Part shown: in pieces, positions 1,617 to 10,238 of the stretch
Layout of the letters: each line of letters opens with the position of its first letter
Position numbering within the stretch: the stretch's first letter is position 1
NCBI GenBank assembly: GCA_035629175.1
Contig: DASPIL010000054.1
Coordinates: forward strand, 1 to 32,373
Source: Verrucomicrobiia bacterium
GTDB taxonomy: Bacteria > Verrucomicrobiota > Verrucomicrobiia > Limisphaerales > DASXHY01
DNA: 32,373 bases
Direction of reading: 5' to 3'
The notes under the pieces: model-generated
The model's input: the letters and a program-made list of their open reading frames with translations, nothing else
Databases searched by the model: none
Told to the model about the DNA's origin: nothing
Made by a program: the position numbers and the translations under genes

Positions 1617-2246
1617 ATGGTCTCCGAACAAAGTTATCGGAACGGTGCCATCCTGGTGTTTCTGCTGGTCACCGCCCTCGCAACGACGTTGTGGTTTCTG
1701 CCCAACAACCAGGGCGTGGCGCTCACCACTGAGGGATCGCTCATCGAAAGTCTTTCGGTTGCGGTCATCGCCGCGGGCGCCGTGGGAGCTGCCTGGAAGG
1801 CGACGCGCTCGCATCCGCGGCTGTGGATCGCCGTCGCAGTCCTCTTTTGCTGGATGTTTCTTCGTGAACTCGATTACCAAAAGATGTTCACGGTGCGCTC
1901 GATTGAATCGATCGGCTTCTACTCCAACCCGCGGGTCCCGATCGCGACGAAGTTGATTGCCCTTGCCGCCCTCGCGCCATTCGTGCTGGCAGGCGTCTAC
2001 CTCGCGTTGAAAAGTTTTCGTCTCCTGAAACGGCTGCCTGCCTTGCGGCGTTTCTGGCTCCCGCCCGCTGTCTGCGCGATGGTTCTTGCTGCGATTGCGC
2101 TCGCAGTCGAGAAGTTGCTCGGCCACAAATTCCAGATCGTCGAGGAGTGCGCCGAACTGGGGATCGCCTGCCTGATTGTCTTCGTTGCACTTCGCAGCCA
2201 CTGGCCGGAAGACATGGACACGAGGGTCCGCCCTTCTCGGTCGTAA
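1617..2246 (+). CDS. Multi-pass membrane protein of unknown function
   Basis: A 209-residue, strongly hydrophobic protein with about six predicted membrane segments (roughly residues 11-28, 43-60, 69-84, 112-132, 148-166 and 178-193). Charged loops separate them, including RELDYQKMF after segment 3 and an acidic EECAEL just before the last segment. I do not recognise the family and see no catalytic motif. It lies 24 bp after the DHH phosphoesterase and 31 bp before the GH43 gene on the same strand, so co-transcription is possible, but the three products suggest no shared pathway. The long opposite-strand frames over it look like shadows, because this frame has the clean hydrophobic periodicity. 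Confidence 0.7.
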   Translation: MVSEQSYRNGAILVFLLVTALATTLWFLPNNQGVALTTEGSLIESLSVAVIAAGAVGAAWKATRSHPRLWIAVAVLFCWMFLRELDYQKMFTVRSIESIGFYSNPRVPIATKLIALAALAPFVLAGVYLALKSFRLLKRLPALRRFWLPPAVCAMVLAAIALAVEKLLGHKFQIVEECAELGIACLIVFVALRSHWPEDMDTRVRPSRS

Positions 2247-2277
2247 CCGACTCCACCTTTTTCGCATCCGCAAACCT

Positions 2278-4146
2278 ATGAACCATTGCGCCGCCTTCCT
2301 TTTTTCCGCGCTGATGATCAGCGCCAGCCCTGCGGCAACATGGACTGCTGACAACGGCAACGGCACCTTCACCAACCCGTTGTTCTATGATGAGTTTTCC
2401 GATCCTGACCTAATCCGCGTGGGCGATGATTTTTACCTGACGGGCACCACGATGCACACGATGCCCGGGCTGCCTGTGCTGCATTCGAAGGATTTGGTGA
2501 ATTGGAAACTGATGTCGTATGCCGCCGAGAAGCTCGACTTTGGACCCGAGTTTCGATTGGAAAACGGCCAGGCGGTGTACGGCCAGGGCATCTGGGCACC
2601 GAGTTTTCGCCACCACAAAGGCCGCTTCTACATTTTCAGCAACGTCAATCGGCACGGCACGCAGGTGTATACCGCAACGAATGCCGCGGGCCCGTGGGAA
2701 CATCGGACAATGAAGCGCTCGTTCCATGACCTCTCCGTGTTGTTTGATGACGATTCAAAGACCTACGTCGTGTGGGGTTATCGCGATCTCCGCTTTGCTG
2801 AGTTGAACGACGCGCTCGATGACATCGTGCCGGGAACGGAGAAAGTGCTGATCCAGCGCGATGCGGGGATCGGCGAAGGGGTGCACTTTTATAAAATTGG
2901 CGGGAAGTATTATATTCTGAGCGCGTGGTATGAAGGCCGGATGCGAATGCCGTGCGCGCGTGCTGACCGGCCTGAAGGTCCTTACGAAGTGAACCTCGAG
3001 ATCAGCGCGGACGAGGAATTTGGGATTCCCGAGGGCAATCGCCTTGGCCGGGTCACGCCCGCGGACCCTTATCCCATTGTTCCCGTGAACCCGGGTGCAG
3101 TCGGCCGCATGTCGCTGCATCAGGGGGGAATCGTCGATACGCCCACGGGCGAATGGTGGGGTTTTTCGATGATGGATTACAATTCAGTCGGGCGGCTCAC
3201 CTGCATCTCACCGATCACCTGGAAAGACGGCTGGCCATACTTCGGGCTGCCTGGAAACCTAAAGCGCACCCCGCGAACCTGGGTCAAGCCAAACACGGGT
3301 CACCGTTCCGACCCGTCGTCGCCGTATCAGCGAAACGACGATTTCTCGGGACCTGAGCTCGCCAACGTCTGGCAATGGAACCATTTGCCGCTGAATGAAA
3401 AATGGTCCATCACCGAGCGGCCGGGTTTCCTCCGGCTTCATTCGTTGCCCGCGACCAACTTCTGGTTCGCGCGCAACACGCTGACGCAACGCTCCATTGG
3501 ACCGGAATCCTCACCTGCAACCGAACTGGAAACAGCGGGAATGAAGGCGGGCGACGTGGCTGGTTTGGCTTTGCTGAATTATCCGTATGCGTGGATTGGC
3601 GTGATGCGCACGGGAACTGGATTTGAGTTGCTGCAATACGATCAGAAAACAGGTGAAACAAACCGCGCTCCATTCGCGGGCGGACGCGTGTGGCTGCAAG
3701 CGCACTGCGACTTCCTCAAAGAGACCGGCCAATTGAGCTACAGCACCAACGGCCGAACGTATCAACAACTTGGAAGCGATGTGACTCTCGTGTTTCAACT
3801 GCGCACGTTTCAGGGCGTTCGTTATTGCCTCTTTCACTTCAACCTGGATGGCGAACCTGGCGGGCATGCTGATTTCGACAGCTTCCGCGTGGACGAACCC
3901 AGACCCTCGGGCCTGACGCGGCCGATTCCGGTCGGAGAGTCGATCGTTCTGGAGACTCGTCCCGATAAACGCGTGCTCGTTGCGAAAGGCGAGCATTGGT
4001 TGCTGTGTCCCCTGACGAGGCTGAAGCACAATCTGCTGCCGCGCGATTTGATGTGGTCGATCGCAACTTCGGCCGTGTCGCATTGCGTTCAGCCGGAACC
4101 GACCGGTTCATCACCGTCAATGGCCTGGGCGAACAGAGCAGTGTGA
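2278..4146 (+). CDS. Secreted glycoside hydrolase family 43 protein, C-terminus frameshifted
   Basis: A GH43 enzyme of the beta-xylosidase/arabinofuranosidase type acting on plant polysaccharide side chains. The ATG at 2278 is chosen because it begins a signal peptide (MNHCAAFLFSALMISASPAA), whereas the frame open from 2176 has none. The five-bladed propeller follows: FSDPDLIRVGDDFY carries the general-base Asp, HDLSVLFDDD fits the pKa-modulating Asp, and GEGVHFYKI carries the probable general-acid Glu. From about residue 360 comes the concanavalin-like C-terminal domain typical of GH43 xylosidases, ending near residue 550. At about position 3994 (residue 572) the sense changes: the frame runs 50 residues of unfamiliar sequence to 4146, while the expected beta-trefoil continues in another frame to 4346. 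Export to the periplasm or outside is inferred. Confidence 0.88.
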   Translation: MNHCAAFLFSALMISASPAATWTADNGNGTFTNPLFYDEFSDPDLIRVGDDFYLTGTTMHTMPGLPVLHSKDLVNWKLMSYAAEKLDFGPEFRLENGQAVYGQGIWAPSFRHHKGRFYIFSNVNRHGTQVYTATNAAGPWEHRTMKRSFHDLSVLFDDDSKTYVVWGYRDLRFAELNDALDDIVPGTEKVLIQRDAGIGEGVHFYKIGGKYYILSAWYEGRMRMPCARADRPEGPYEVNLEISADEEFGIPEGNRLGRVTPADPYPIVPVNPGAVGRMSLHQGGIVDTPTGEWWGFSMMDYNSVGRLTCISPITWKDGWPYFGLPGNLKRTPRTWVKPNTGHRSDPSSPYQRNDDFSGPELANVWQWNHLPLNEKWSITERPGFLRLHSLPATNFWFARNTLTQRSIGPESSPATELETAGMKAGDVAGLALLNYPYAWIGVMRTGTGFELLQYDQKTGETNRAPFAGGRVWLQAHCDFLKETGQLSYSTNGRTYQQLGSDVTLVFQLRTFQGVRYCLFHFNLDGEPGGHADFDSFRVDEPRPSGLTRPIPVGESIVLETRPDKRVLVAKGEHWLLCPLTRLKHNLLPRDLMWSIATSAVSHCVQPEPTGSSPSMAWANRAV

Positions 4147-4777: not shown

Positions 4778-6763
4778 ATGATTGTTTTTGGCGATCCCGA
4801 GTTTTCCCGTCCAGCGCGAGTGGTTCTGATGTCGCTCCGCGCCCAGGTGGAACGTTCCGCCGCGAACTCGCTGGACGATCTTCGCACACTCCTTATCCAG
4901 GCGGGCCAACTGGAACAAGCCGTCGAAGATGCGGGTTCGGCTGAAATAGACGAAGGGCTTCTCAACAGGATCCGGGAGGTTACAGACCGCGCTGCGACGG
5001 CGTTCTGCGATCGATGGTTTTCCGCTGCCTTCCTGCGTTTGAACGGCGCCGAGAAGAACGGTTCCAGCCACACTGTTGCTTCCGAATGCATGGCGCAGAT
5101 TTCTGCGGCGCTGTTGGAAATTCAGTTTCCTGACACGCTTGCGCTGCGGATCAAAGTTCCCGAAGGATTCCAATTTTACGCCCTTTATCCCGAACAGTAT
5201 TGCGCCTCAGCGGTCAAGTGGGCCGAGGCCAATCCCGATTACGAACGCGCGTTGGTGGTTGGAATCCGCAGCATCGGCACCGCCCTTTCAGCCGTCGTGC
5301 GGGCCACTCTGCTGGCAACGGGAAGATCAGTGGATCGGTGCACCGTCCGCCCGAGCGGGCATCCTTTCGAACGCGATGTCGCGCTGCCGGCGCTCAATGC
5401 TTTTCAATACCGGCATGCGTTGATTGTGGACGAGGGTCCTGGTCTTTCGGGAAGTTCCATGGTCGCAACGGCTCGCGCAGTGCAGAATGCCGGGATCGAA
5501 TCGATCGCGCTGTTGCCGGGACACGATCACGCGCCTGGATCGTCGGCGTCCGCGGAAACCCTGGACATTTGGCGAAACACACCGCGCCACGTGACCGCGC
5601 TGGATGAACTGCGCTGGCACCGGTGGTCACTGATGGAAAGCCTTCCGCGCGAAGCGTCGCGCATCTTTGCAGCGTCAACGGGCGCGGAACCTGGCGATCC
5701 CGACCGGCCGGAAGTGCATCCCGCCTGGCGGTTCATCTACAGCCAGGCCGTGCAGACATTGTATGGCATCGTTCCCGAATCCGAGGGGACGGGAACGTTC
5801 GACCTTGTCCAGGATTGCAGCGGCGGACTTTGGCGGCGTTACGCTTTCCATTCCGAATCCGACTGGCCTCCGGTTGCGGCGCAATTCGAGCGCATGAAGT
5901 TTCGCTGCGCGGATCATCAGGGTGGAGCCGTGTTGTGGAAATTCTGCGGCCTCGGGGCCAACACCGGAGACGGCGGCGGCAATGCAGCCTTGATGCAGCG
6001 GTTGTACCGGCTCTCCAATCTCGGTTTCACAGTCGCACCGCTCGGAGCGTTCCGGGGGTTCATCGCGCAGCCGTGGATAGAAGGCGTGCGGCTTACCATC
6101 GCGGACGGCATCGACGTTCATATTCTGAAACGGGTTGGCGAATACATCCTGGCGGCTGCAGATCCGCGGCTGTCGGAGCTGGAAATGCGCGCGTCTGTTT
6201 CGCGATTGAGCGACGTCCTTTACTGGAACACGCACGAGGCGCTGGGCGAACCGATGGCGGAACGCACGCGCGAACTGGTGCAGGCGGTGGGTGCTTTGGA
6301 ACCCGTACTGGGGGCCGGCGATGGACATCTGGCGCCACACGAATGGATACTTTCGGCCGCTGCGCGGCATGTGTTGAAGCTGGATTGCGAAGGACACGGC
6401 GCCGATCACACCATTGTCGGGCGGCAGCCCATTCATTGGGACGTGGCGGGAGCGATCGTGGAATGGGACCTCGACACTGCATCTGCCGCGCCCCTGCTCG
6501 CGCCGTTGGAAAACGGCGGGACATTCATCGAGCCCACCGCGCTCCCGTTTTTCGTCGCGGCGTATTCCGCGTTTCGCATGGGATTGATGTCGCTGACCCT
6601 TGATGCAACGACGAATCCCGCTGAGCGGGCGCGTCTGCAGCATGCGTTTTATTTCTACCAGAACAAACTCGCGCAGATTCTCAACACGCTGCCAGCGGCG
6701 AGCCGGGCGGTGCATTCAGTGCCGTTACCTTCACCGACCAGTCATCAATCTCCAGGGCACTGA
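4778..6763 (+). CDS. Phosphoribosyltransferase-like / kinase-like fusion protein
   Basis: A 661-residue soluble protein with two recognisable halves. Residues about 155-250 form a type I phosphoribosyltransferase-like core: RALVVGIRSIG, then RPSGHPF, then the PRPP-loop-like VDEGPGLSGSS (217-227) and IESIALLPGH. Residues about 385-575 resemble the protein-kinase/aminoglycoside-phosphotransferase fold: LWKFCGLG could supply the ATP-binding Lys, GDGHLAPHEWI (514-524) matches the catalytic loop, and HWDVAGAIVEWDLD matches the metal-binding segment. I recall similar uncharacterised proteins elsewhere, with no assigned reaction. A second in-frame ATG lies at 4829. The longer start is kept because the extra residues look conserved. 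The 3' end overlaps the convergent phosphatase gene by 83 bp. Substrate unknown. Confidence 0.7.
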   Translation: MIVFGDPEFSRPARVVLMSLRAQVERSAANSLDDLRTLLIQAGQLEQAVEDAGSAEIDEGLLNRIREVTDRAATAFCDRWFSAAFLRLNGAEKNGSSHTVASECMAQISAALLEIQFPDTLALRIKVPEGFQFYALYPEQYCASAVKWAEANPDYERALVVGIRSIGTALSAVVRATLLATGRSVDRCTVRPSGHPFERDVALPALNAFQYRHALIVDEGPGLSGSSMVATARAVQNAGIESIALLPGHDHAPGSSASAETLDIWRNTPRHVTALDELRWHRWSLMESLPREASRIFAASTGAEPGDPDRPEVHPAWRFIYSQAVQTLYGIVPESEGTGTFDLVQDCSGGLWRRYAFHSESDWPPVAAQFERMKFRCADHQGGAVLWKFCGLGANTGDGGGNAALMQRLYRLSNLGFTVAPLGAFRGFIAQPWIEGVRLTIADGIDVHILKRVGEYILAAADPRLSELEMRASVSRLSDVLYWNTHEALGEPMAERTRELVQAVGALEPVLGAGDGHLAPHEWILSAAARHVLKLDCEGHGADHTIVGRQPIHWDVAGAIVEWDLDTASAAPLLAPLENGGTFIEPTALPFFVAAYSAFRMGLMSLTLDATTNPAERARLQHAFYFYQNKLAQILNTLPAASRAVHSVPLPSPTSHQSPGH

Positions 6764-7292
6764 TCGAGGCGGGACTCACTTCCAGCCGCGGAATGAAATC
6801 CAGCGGCATCCCCAGGTAAAAACAAAGTACGGACCGAAGTGGATCTCCGTGGCTCACAAGCGCGATCCGCTGTTCGGCAAACTTTCGCCGCAGCATGTCG
6901 ATTGCGCGCACCATGCGCGCCTGAATCTCATGAATTGTTTCGCCGTTGGGAATGCGAACGCCGGTGCGGAATGTGTTCCATTGCCTCCACAAGTCAGAAC
7001 CCGTGAGACCCTCGAGTTCCAGCCCGGTCCAATCGCCAAATTGGATCTCATTTAATTCCTCGAGCACCTGAACCTGCAGTCCCAACCGCCGCGCAATCGG
7101 CTCGGCAGTTTCCCTGCAACGCTCCATTGGGCTGCTGAAGACGAGGTTGATTTGAGAAGCGGCGAGGCCGTCCGCAAGGCGTTCTGCCTCGGCCTTTCCT
7201 GCTTCGTTCAAGTGAACCCCGGCGCGCCTGCCCACCAGCGATTTGCCGACGAAATCATTGGCGCCATGTCGAATGAGGAAAAACGTGGTCAT
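6681..7292 (-). CDS. Histidine phosphatase (phosphoglycerate mutase-like) family protein
   Basis: A 203-residue branch-1 histidine phosphatase. The catalytic LIRHGAND is at residues 6-13 (phospho-accepting His 9), the second arginine region is SSPMERCRETAEPIA, the acid/base Glu sits in NEIQFGDWTG, and the second His is in LVSHGDPLR. These enzymes remove phosphate through a phosphohistidine intermediate. The substrate cannot be told, with sugar phosphates, nucleotides or cobalamin/inositol intermediates all possible. It is the last of three same-strand genes after inositol-3-phosphate synthase and the GH-A protein, so an inositol-phosphate or glycosyl-phosphate role is conceivable but not shown. 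The last 83 bp overlap the convergent gene. Both reading frames look genuine up to near their ends. Confidence 0.85.
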   Translation of the reverse strand: MTTFFLIRHGANDFVGKSLVGRRAGVHLNEAGKAEAERLADGLAASQINLVFSSPMERCRETAEPIARRLGLQVQVLEELNEIQFGDWTGLELEGLTGSDLWRQWNTFRTGVRIPNGETIHEIQARMVRAIDMLRRKFAEQRIALVSHGDPLRSVLCFYLGMPLDFIPRLEVSPASISALEIDDWSVKVTALNAPPGSPLAAC

Positions 7293-7349: not shown

Positions 7350-8285
7350 TCAAGCCCCGGCGGAAACGACAGATGCGGCGGCCTGCTTCGTTTTCCGCGC
7401 CGGCCAATCCGTCACGTAGCGTTGCACCACCGCCGCTGCGAATTCGGCAAACTCCTCCGGCACCTGCGGTGGACTCGTGCAATTCGGTGCCTTGCCCCGC
7501 GAAGGCGGAGTGAAACAAAGAGTGATCGTTGTATCGAAATCGTCCAGCGCGTGCATCTGCCTGTCGAACCATCCGCGCGCGCCCGGCCGATGCCAGTCCG
7601 CCCAGCTGATTCCCGTCCGCAGCTTCTTCACGCCCAGTTTCTTCAACCAGTCCACTGCGAAGTCGAGGCGGTGATCTTCAAAGTGAAACCATTGGCAGAT
7701 ACCCATCGCCGGGTTGAAATGGTTCAACGCGGGTTTTGGGGTGCCGTCAGCGCGAATCAACCCGAGATAGAAATGCCGGTAATAGGCGCTCCCTTCGCTT
7801 TCCTTGTGGCGCGTCGTCGCTTCCCACGCCGGGGGCAAATCCATGAGGCTGTACCAGAAGATGCGGTCCACCTTCCCGAGCAGCAGCTCTTCCGTTCGCT
7901 TCAAGCCAAACACCTGCACTTCGTCGGCACCAAACGTCGAGACGCCGACCTCCGTCACCCAGATCGGCAGGTCCGTCACTGCGCGAATTTCGTCCAGCTT
8001 TTTGGGCCAGTCATTGATCTGCCAATGGTTCCAGTCGAGCGGGAAACCATGCACCGCGACGGCGTCGAGATGGTCGAGCAGCCCATTGTGTTCCAGCAGC
8101 GTGATGAAGATGGGATCAATCGGCGAAATGCCGCCCAGTATCAGCGGCAGGTCCGGCGCTTGCCGCCGAATCGCCGTTGCCCCGAGCCGTATCATTTCCG
8201 AAAACTCGCGCCACTGGGGATCCATCGTGAAGTCCCAGTGGGAGAGATTGTTGGGCTCGTTCCAGAGTTTGATGGCTTCGATCAT
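7350..8285 (-). CDS. Clan GH-A glycosidase-like protein with barrel halves in swapped order
   Basis: A 311-residue frame holding an entire clan-A (beta/alpha)8 barrel in unusual order. Near the N-terminus is IKLWNEPNN (strand 4, presumed acid/base Glu 10), followed by [11 protein letters not shown] (strand 5), [11 protein letters not shown] (strand 6), [11 protein letters not shown] (strand 7, presumed nucleophile Glu 112) and [11 protein letters not shown] (strand 8). Then from residue 194 come [11 protein letters not shown] (strand 1), [12 protein letters not shown] (strand 2), [11 protein letters not shown] (strand 3) and a helix ending VVQRY, which normally leads straight into strand 4. 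The start at 8285 has a good GAGGAA site. It is either a circular permutation or a rearranged or misassembled gene. The start lies inside the end of the inositol synthase frame. Confidence 0.7.
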
Positions 8286-9402
8286 GGTCGGATTCCTCGT
8301 TGCGAATAAAAGCCTGCACCAGTTCACGCGCGCGATTGTCGGTAAACTGCTGCGGCGGGGATTTCATGAAGTAACTCGACGGCCCGATCAGCGCACCTGC
8401 CATCCCCCGCTCCATCGCGAGTTTCGCGCAGCGGACCGCGTCGATGACAACGCCCGCGGAATTGGGCGAGTCCCAAACCTCGAGCTTCAACTCGCAGTTG
8501 AGGGGGACATTGCCGAACGTCGTGCCTTCCATGCGGATGTAGCACCATTTGCGATCCTCCAGCCACGGCACGTAATCACTCGGTCCGACATGCGCCTGCG
8601 CGTCCGACATTGCAAAATCCAACTGGCTCGTTACGGCCCGCGTCTTTGAAATCTTCTTTGACTCGAGCCGTTCCCGCTCGAGCATGTTCATGAAGTCCGT
8701 GTTCCCGCCGAAGTTCAGCTGATACGTGCGATCCAGGTGCACGCCGCGTTCGCGGAATAGGTTTGTGAGGACACGATGCGTGATCGTCGCGCCCACCTGC
8801 GACTTGATGTCGTCGCCAATGATCGGCAATCCGCGATCCGCGAATCGCTTCTGCCAGTAGGGCTGCGACGCGATGAAGACTGGAATGCAGTTGATGAACG
8901 CGCAGCCCGCTTCCAGGATCTGTTCGACGTACCACTTGGTCGCCATTTCCGACCCCACGGGAAGATAGGAAACCACGACGTCAGTTTTCGTTTCCTTGAG
9001 GATGCCCACGATGTCGGCCGTGGGCCCGGGCGCCTTGATCACGACGTCCTGCAGATATTTTCCCAAACCGTCATGGGTCATTCCGCGATGCACCTTGACG
9101 TTCAGGTGCGGCACTTTGGAGAACTTGTAGGTATTGTTCGGCTCCGCAAAGATGGCTTCCGAGAGATCCTTCCCCACCTTGGTGACATTGACGTCGAAAG
9201 CGGCGGTGAATTCGATGTCCCGAACGTGATAGCCGCCGAGCGTGACGTGCATGAGCCCGGGGACTGATTCCGACGGGTCGGCATTTTTATAAAACTCGAC
9301 TCCCTGGACGAGCGACGAGGCGCAATTGCCTACGCCGATCAGGGCGACCCGGATTTTCTTCGCACGACCGTTGTCGAGGCGGTCCGCGCGAATAGTGTTC
9401 AT
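8116..9402 (-). CDS. Inositol-3-phosphate synthase (myo-inositol-1-phosphate synthase), run-on C-terminus
   Basis: Converts glucose 6-phosphate to inositol 3-phosphate with bound NAD, the first step of inositol synthesis. Visible are the N-terminal dinucleotide-binding [12 protein letters not shown], then [39 protein letters not shown] and [13 protein letters not shown], all characteristic of the family. The family sequence seems to end about residue 372 with [11 protein letters not shown]. The frame then continues some 56 residues over the neighbouring glycosidase gene, and that tail looks like a shadow of the glycosidase frame. A missing stop codon at this point suggests a rearrangement junction. 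The ATG at 9402 is used, and a GTG at 9411 is also possible. It is probably co-transcribed with the two genes downstream. Confidence 0.88.
8293..8298 (-). promoter_or_regulatory. Ribosome-binding site for the GH-A gene
   Basis: GAGGAA on the minus strand, seven bases before the ATG at 8285. It decides this start over the upstream in-frame codons to 8327, which only translate the antiparallel frame of the inositol synthase tail. It lies inside the end of the inositol synthase coding region. Confidence 0.5.
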
Positions 9403-9444
9403 TGGCTCCACGGTCCGAAACCATGTCCCAACAATTCGCAGAAT

Positions 9445-9939
9445 TCATTGGGGTGAATCCATGCCTTCGAGGCGCGGTGATCCGCCGGCGGTCAAGGGAT
9501 TGAGAAGCGCGCGGAGCATGGCGGAAAGCTGCACGGAGGGGCTGGGCTCCTGGGAATCCCAGCGCTCATCAAACGGGAACGGATCATCAGCCCATTCGCT
9601 GAGTTGCATGGAACAGGTTTCCGCCAGCTGCCGAATTTGCCGAAGCGCGCTGGCGTAAGGCGCGATGCCGGGTCGATCGACGAGCATGGCGATCATGGAC
9701 TGCACTTCGCCCAATGAGCCGCGGCCGGCGGAAACGATTGCCACGAGATCCTCCGCGCTGCTGCGTTCGAATGCTTCGGCAATGCAGTTCGAAGCGGAGA
9801 TCACGGCGCGATCGAGGCGGTCGCGAAAGCCGGTGGACAGTGGAATTTCACTTTCACCGAGAAGGTCTTGAACTGCGTTGTAGAGCTGTTTGGTTTCCTG
9901 CCAGACTGGAAGTTCCTCGAAGCTTTGATAATCCCTCAT
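9445..9939 (-). CDS. Four-helix bundle protein (23S rRNA intervening-sequence family)
   Basis: A 164-residue protein of the S23/IVS four-helix bundle family. The N-terminal ELPVWQETKQLYNAVQDLL and the following GFRDRLDRAVISASNCIAEAFER are typical of the family, whose members were first seen inside 23S rRNA intervening sequences but often stand alone. No biochemical role is established. The start is put at 9939, where MRDYQSFEELPVW begins, with a purine-rich AAAGGG upstream. The longer frame to 10230 translates intergenic DNA. The C-terminal 40 residues are Pro/Ser-rich and not family-like. It stands upstream of the inositol synthase on the same strand, 42 bp away, with no rRNA nearby. Confidence 0.82.
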   Translation of the reverse strand: MRDYQSFEELPVWQETKQLYNAVQDLLGESEIPLSTGFRDRLDRAVISASNCIAEAFERSSAEDLVAIVSAGRGSLGEVQSMIAMLVDRPGIAPYASALRQIRQLAETCSMQLSEWADDPFPFDERWDSQEPSPSVQLSAMLRALLNPLTAGGSPRLEGMDSPQ

Positions 9940-10238
9940 ACCCTTTTTCCCTTTCCCTTGTTTCCCTACCCAACCTCGCTTGATGTTACCGCCTGCACTC
10001 GCGCGAGGTGTTGCGAGCACGCGCTCTGTGTTACCAAAACCAGTTGGGGAAGCAATCGGAAAGTTTACGCGCGGGCTCGGAATCTGCGCGCGATAAACAG
10101 AGACGCTCCCATGGCGGCGAGTGCGCCTTTGGTCGCATGGCGGGAACCGGTTGAAAGCTGGTTCTACTACCGGCGGCGTATGGTTCGTTTTTGCGCCAGG
10201 TGCTAGAACACACTTATTCAATTCAACCACCTGACACC
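9940..10238. other. Divergent intergenic region
   Basis: About 300 bp between the divergent four-helix-bundle gene and the unknown operon. It must hold promoters for both. A weak candidate for the rightward operon is TTGCGC (10191-10196), 17 bases, then TTATTC (10214-10219). The inverted pair GAACC/GGTTC near 10145-10165 may form a small hairpin. I see no gene here. Confidence 0.35.

Follow-up and report, generated by a model that had tools for sequence, protein, structure and literature searches.

A phosphoribosyltransferase-fold and kinase-fold fusion protein encoded with inositol-phosphate and sugar enzymes in unrelated bacterial phyla

Ribosylation in two steps, by a phosphoribosyltransferase (PRTase) and then a phosphatase, is an established strategy, exemplified by BtrL/BtrP of butirosin and by CobT/CobC. 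The phosphoribosyltransferase (PRT) fold also serves other ends: PyrR is an RNA-binding regulator built on this fold, and PRPP synthetases use two PRT-like halves. In the mycothiol pathway, whose biosynthetic set comprises Ino1, MshA, the phosphatase MshA2, MshB, MshC and MshD, an inositol phosphate is glycosylated and then dephosphorylated (PMC4360819). The locus described here shares features with these systems and departs from each of them.

The window, by which we mean the whole stretch of 32,373 nucleotides that was analysed, comes from a Verrucomicrobiia bacterium. It contains a real single open reading frame whose product, here called PRTK, is a fusion protein. Most homologues share a conserved N-terminal M-[IL]-V-Y-G-D, which backs the start codon, and the host genome carries one copy of the gene. 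AlphaFold models the full-length protein with a mean pLDDT of 89 and a pTM of 0.90, and the following regions can be delimited:

4778..6763, + strand: PRTK, PRT-kinase fusion of 661 aa (open reading frame; homologues in at least 79 genome loci and 89 plasmids; AlphaFold)
4778..5119, + strand: N-terminal, mostly helical region, residues 1-114 (DSSP of the AlphaFold model)
5120..5677, + strand: PRT-fold domain, residues 115-300 (domain-alone model; PyrR structural match)
5801..6697, + strand: kinase-fold domain, about residues 342-640 (structural and profile matches to LicA)

In the model, residues 1-114 form a possible hood, or cap, of the PRT domain. An earlier note on this DNA had read PRT-like and kinase-like domains in one chain with no assigned reaction, and had reckoned with the chance that structure prediction would show neither fold. 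Both folds are recovered by structure prediction, and the protein has no family match in Pfam, NCBIfam or PADLOC and no significant relative in the PDB by phmmer. The architecture joins two well-known enzyme folds and is recognised by none of the family libraries used. Scans of the window found no RNA element in Rfam, and the promoter and terminator signal did not rise above that of shuffled sequences.

Folded alone, residues 115-300 reach a pLDDT of 93.3. The resulting model has the fold of type I PRTases, matching PyrR (2igb; Z 13.7, rmsd 3.6, 137 residues aligned) and, further, UPRT, HPRT, APRT and PRPP synthetase (3mbi, Z 13.4). Three segments of this domain are candidates for the loops of a PRTase active site:

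5261..5281, + strand: GIRSIGT, residues 162-168, candidate pyrophosphate-binding loop (G162, I166 and G167 in 80/80; R164 in 79/80)
5345..5374, + strand: VRPSGHPFER, residues 190-199, candidate flexible/catalytic loop region (R191 and R199 in 80/80)
5426-5458, + strand: PRPP-loop-like VDEGPGLSGSS, residues 217-227 (DEGxGxSG core invariant in 80/80)

The last of these had already been singled out in the earlier note; D218, E219, G220, G222, S224 and G225 are each present in 80 of the 80 rows of our alignment, and the acid pair and S-G-S-S show little or no variation. Judged by the anatomy of type I PRTases, GIRSIGT is a candidate counterpart of their pyrophosphate loop, and VRPxGHPFxR presumably corresponds to their flexible loop, which it resembles. 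Like PyrR, UPRT, HPRT and APRT, PRTK combines the fold with a PRPP-loop-like segment that has an acid pair and S-G, and with a G-I-R-S-I-G loop. Unlike them, it has a longer loop, a fused kinase and a gene context of sugar and inositol enzymes, and it falls below the cut-off of PF00156: the window protein has no match at E 10, and only 3 of 80 relatives match, at E 0.13 or worse.

The longer loop bears on whether this domain is catalytic. Relative to the classical PRTase signature, an acid pair with T/S-G-x-T/S, we take PRTK to carry one extra residue between the acidic pair and S-G, which counts against an active transferase. The main rival to catalysis is a PRT domain that senses PRPP or a nucleotide and switches the kinase on or off with the supply of ribose phosphate. 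The displaced signature would suit such a sensor, as would the place of PyrR among the top structural matches and a permanent fusion, which fits allosteric control; on the other hand, the loops at 162-168, 190-199 and 217-227 are all near-invariant, which is more than sensing strictly needs. We consider a sensor unlikely.

The C-terminal part of the model superposes on the choline kinase LicA (Z 19.1, rmsd 4.3, 262 residues aligned, model residues 283-639), thereby showing the bilobal kinase fold of the choline kinase/APH superfamily; glucosamine kinase, homoserine kinase and maltokinase follow at Z 16-17. An 80-sequence profile also finds LicA by sequence (E 9e-4, weak support), and one homologue matches the kinase family NF041256 at E 2.7e-7, under that family's cut-off. 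The window protein itself has no match at E 10 to the choline kinase/APH families of Pfam. The segments expected of a kinase active site are as follows:

5813..5836, + strand: DCSGGLWR, residues 346-353, candidate Gly-rich phosphate loop (W352 in 79/79, R353 in 78/79, G350 in 77/80)
5939..5941, + strand: K388, candidate ATP-anchoring Lys (K in 67/80, R in 12/80; its LicA counterpart lies in the VKF strand)
6317-6349, + strand: catalytic-loop-like GDGHLAPHEWI, residues 514-524 (D515 in 79/79)
6377..6442, + strand: metal-Asp segment LKLD...WD, residues 534-555 (K534 in 78/78, D536 in 74/78, D555 in 78/79)

The earlier note had put GDGHLAPHEWI some 290 residues beyond the PRPP-like loop and paired it with a downstream Asp segment; the distance is 297 residues, and the segment resolves into LKLD, with Asp536, and then WD, with Asp555, both conserved. 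In the 80-sequence profile, D515, D536 and D555 align with the catalytic Asp, the IDW (LIDW) segment and the WDLA segment of LicA, so that the catalytic and the metal-binding Asp are both in place. The loss of the PRPP loop and the catalytic Asp from most homologues, which the note had named as fatal to its reading, is not seen; both are kept. The Asn metal ligand is the exception. Its LicA position is held by Glu522 in 73 of 79 sequences and by Asn in one, and this replacement counts against an active kinase. PRTK thus resembles LicA, homoserine kinase and maltokinase in fold, catalytic Asp, metal Asp and WDxA helix, and differs from them in the Glu that replaces the metal-ligand Asn, in a catalytic loop two residues longer, in lacking a Pfam match and in its fusion to a PRT domain. 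Since membership fails at the level of sequence, PRTK is better said to work like PF00156 and APH proteins than to be one of them.

PRTK is an unannotated protein that is widespread in bacteria. It was matched in 10 of 320 genomes of the window's order, and in a class sample of 384 the window's own genome was the sole carrier; tblastn found it on 89 plasmids, mostly of Sinorhizobium, with alignments that cover almost the whole protein at about 30% identity. From species genomes, a profile-guided scan yielded 358 relatives, the best 79 loci of which were retained. These include Verrucomicrobiota, Pseudomonadota, Acidobacteriota, Gemmatimonadota, Chloroflexota, Fibrobacterota, Bacteroidota, Ignavibacteriota, Myxococcota, Planctomycetota and Actinomycetota, although many lie on MAG contigs, so contamination is possible in single cases. 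In the tree, sequences group broadly by phylum, and the clade that holds the window protein is mixed. Loci were fetched with three peptide patterns, two in the PRT half (one being the PRPP loop itself) and one in the kinase half, which biases the conservation counts of the 80-row alignment; the same motifs are invariant in 14 homologues from ordinary tblastn-type searches that used no motif pattern.

The PRT-kinase fusion is permanent among the relatives studied. Both halves are present in 76 of the 79 genome loci (the best 79 of 358 relatives), the remaining three stopping at a contig end, and plasmid searches with each half separately returned the same 89 records, by genus and in the same numbers, the lone extra being an 80-aa kinase fragment on a Comamonadaceae plasmid. 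A viral origin was rejected, as the viral contigs and phages searched held no relatives of PRTK, and a role in anti-phage defence was rejected for want of a PADLOC match.

The earlier note had regarded the gene as standing alone. This does not hold for the window, where three genes adjoin it on the other strand, nor for the wider survey of genome context, in which the neighbourhood recurs in unrelated phyla:

6681..7292, - strand: histidine phosphatase, 203 aa, conserved partner (PF00300, E 3.7e-50)
7350..8327, - strand: GH-like 'beta-xylosidase', 325-aa open reading frame, strictest partner (58-78% identity in partner loci)
8116..9411, - strand: inositol-3-phosphate synthase, 431-aa open reading frame, conserved partner (PF01658, E 5.8e-36)

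The phosphatase gene is convergent with PRTK and overlaps its 3' end by 83 nt. Its nearest NCBIfam models are TIGR03848 and cobC, each under cut-off. The resemblance to BtrL/BtrP and CobT/CobC lies in the pairing of a PRTase with a phosphatase, here one that resembles CobC below cut-off. The window copy of the GH protein has no significant Pfam match; its homologues match Glyco_hydro_cc weakly, and elsewhere the protein, 58-78% identical across phyla, is annotated as a beta-xylosidase. The synthase falls short of the INO1 equivalog TIGR03450 (E 1.9e-163, 543.7 bits against a cut-off of 638). The GH and synthase reading frames share up to about 210 nt. Two other loci (L037 and L043) also show long overlaps, and the arrangement may be a conserved one. 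Beyond the synthase, on the - strand at 9445-10230, lies a homologue of the 23S rRNA intervening-sequence (four-helix) protein, and a glycosyl hydrolase family 43 protein with a GH43_C2 domain is encoded at 2176-4146 on the + strand.

The same partners flank PRTK homologues in Azospirillum, Roseomonas and Sinorhizobium, where the clusters also hold glycosyltransferases, epimerases, a zinc dehydrogenase, a Gfo/Idh enzyme, a pyruvyl transferase, an FrhB-like protein and a TIGR04290 methyltransferase. Of the 79 loci, 46 have one or more of GH, phosphatase and synthase at E<1e-25, and among the 54 with at least 5 kb on both flanks 38 do; these loci span Verrucomicrobiota, Alphaproteobacteria, Chloroflexota, Bacteroidota, Fibrobacterota and others. 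Sequence is better kept in the partners than in PRTK: measured against the window copies, median identity reaches 64% (GH), 70% (synthase) and 43% (phosphatase), and PRTK itself has 32%.

Co-occurrence extends to genomes in which the genes are dispersed. In 25 genomes PRTK lies apart from its partners, meaning that the DNA around it either lacked any partner or carried one that was truncated or distant; all 25 encode a GH orthologue (60-68% identity), and 21 encode the synthase. The synthase was not detectable in four acidobacterial PRTK genomes, and inositol phosphate may therefore be dispensable as a substrate. Strong GH orthologues (at least 76%) occur in 6 of the 320 genomes of the window's order, all within the 10 that are PRTK-positive, an overlap that random placement would give with a probability of about 1.5e-10 (our own arithmetic, which ignores kinship).

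Some contexts are of another kind. In the window, a 110-aa DUF883-like gene, slightly under cut-off, lies directly 5' of PRTK. In Microvirga (L048, L051, L055, L060, L063, L071, L089 and L094), PRTK lies apart from its usual partners, on an island with PrkA, DUF444, SpoVR, BrkB and catalase genes. Both observations favour a stress or nucleotide-salvage enzyme akin to Ter-type PRTases, which would yield a nucleoside-like compound. Against such an enzyme, sugar and inositol enzymes dominate the neighbourhoods, the Microvirga genomes encode the GH and the inositol synthase elsewhere, and neither the window protein nor the 80 domains match Ter-type PRTase families in Pfam. No tellurium-resistance neighbours are annotated around the subset of homologues whose neighbourhoods were read, and a search of the host for the Ter-type PRTase_3 gave no match, though the control was equally silent. 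We judge this explanation improbable. A shared general-stress promoter of the EcfG type (GGAAC-N-CGTT) was rejected as well: the conserved hits upstream of 11 Rhizobiaceae homologues fall within the reading frame of the divergent inositol synthase, on its NEPVP codons.

On plasmids, the genus counts of the GH mirror those of PRTK, with additional records from Paracoccus, Bradyrhizobium and Sphingobium. The three of these additional plasmids that were read have a GH cluster but no PRTK in it and no PRTK match elsewhere on the plasmid, which counts against the reading that we prefer, namely that PRTK acts in one pathway with its partners. In one such cluster, on a Bradyrhizobium plasmid, a phosphopentomutase gene (L139:9966-11171) overlaps the GH gene, and a homologue of it (62%) lies within a PRTK-bearing Beijerinckiaceae cluster (L109). 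The presence of phosphopentomutase in both GH and PRTK clusters is a weak hint that the pathway involves ribose phosphate. A ribose-phosphate diphosphokinase or phosphorylase, which would make or break PRPP and feed the kinase or a later NDP-pentose step, could draw on the close structural match to PRPP synthetases (3mbi) and on the phosphopentomutase or NUDIX-like hydrolase of related clusters without PRTK on the plasmid. PRTK has a single PRT-like half where PRPP synthetases have two, and we think such an enzyme very improbable.

Based on the folds, the conserved active-site residues, the fusion, the partner linkage, the co-occurrence and the pentose-phosphate link, we propose that PRTK probably catalyses two steps of a sugar/inositol pathway that is so far undescribed. 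Its two folds, conserved active-site residues, fusion and genomic linkage are shown by the analysis. More specifically, PRTK may unite PRPP-dependent transferase and small-molecule kinase activities in one bifunctional enzyme of an inositol-linked glycoconjugate pathway, a reading from sequence and models to which we give about an even chance. We infer the activity of both sites, the use of PRPP, the acceptor, the order of the steps and the product. The PRT domain would bind PRPP or another 5-phosphoribosyl compound and transfer the phosphoribosyl group to a pathway-specific acceptor, and the kinase domain would phosphorylate a small alcohol or sugar, which could be that acceptor or the product. 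Inositol-3-phosphate synthase would supply inositol phosphate. We further propose that the histidine phosphatase acts before or after these steps to remove a phosphate, perhaps the 5-phosphate of the ribosylated product, that the intracellular clan-A-like glycosidase acts in the same pathway, and that glycosyltransferases, epimerases and a methyltransferase join it in most hosts. A bolder version, to which we assign a low probability, has one chain perform both PRPP-dependent ribosylation of inositol, an inositol phosphate or an inositol glycoside and phosphorylation, as the core of an undescribed glycoconjugate pathway of soil bacteria in about ten phyla, including Sinorhizobium pSymB-type replicons.

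These data mark a conserved, uncharacterised gene set, made up of PRTK, the histidine phosphatase, the GH and inositol-3-phosphate synthase with glycosyltransferases, which is present in model organisms such as Sinorhizobium meliloti and is thus directly testable. We found no literature on the cluster or on its SMb locus tags, the latter a weak negative because the locus-tag numbers were guessed. An active PRT half would add a ribosylation step that lies outside the metabolism of nucleotides, cofactors and aminoglycosides.

The proposed pathway is like that of mycothiol in clustering a synthase of the mycothiol-Ino1 kind with a phosphatase and, in some phyla, with PIG-L, GNAT and glycosyltransferases. 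It differs in that the window's matches to TIGR03450 and TIGR03848 lie below cut-off and in that PRTK and the GH have no counterpart in the mycothiol pathway. Five clusters (L052, L058, L075, L097 and L102), from Bacteroidota, Fibrobacterota, Ignavibacteriota and a deltaproteobacterium, encode a PIG-L deacetylase, a nucleotidyltransferase, a GNAT protein and glycosyltransferases and are reminiscent of mycothiol-type assembly.
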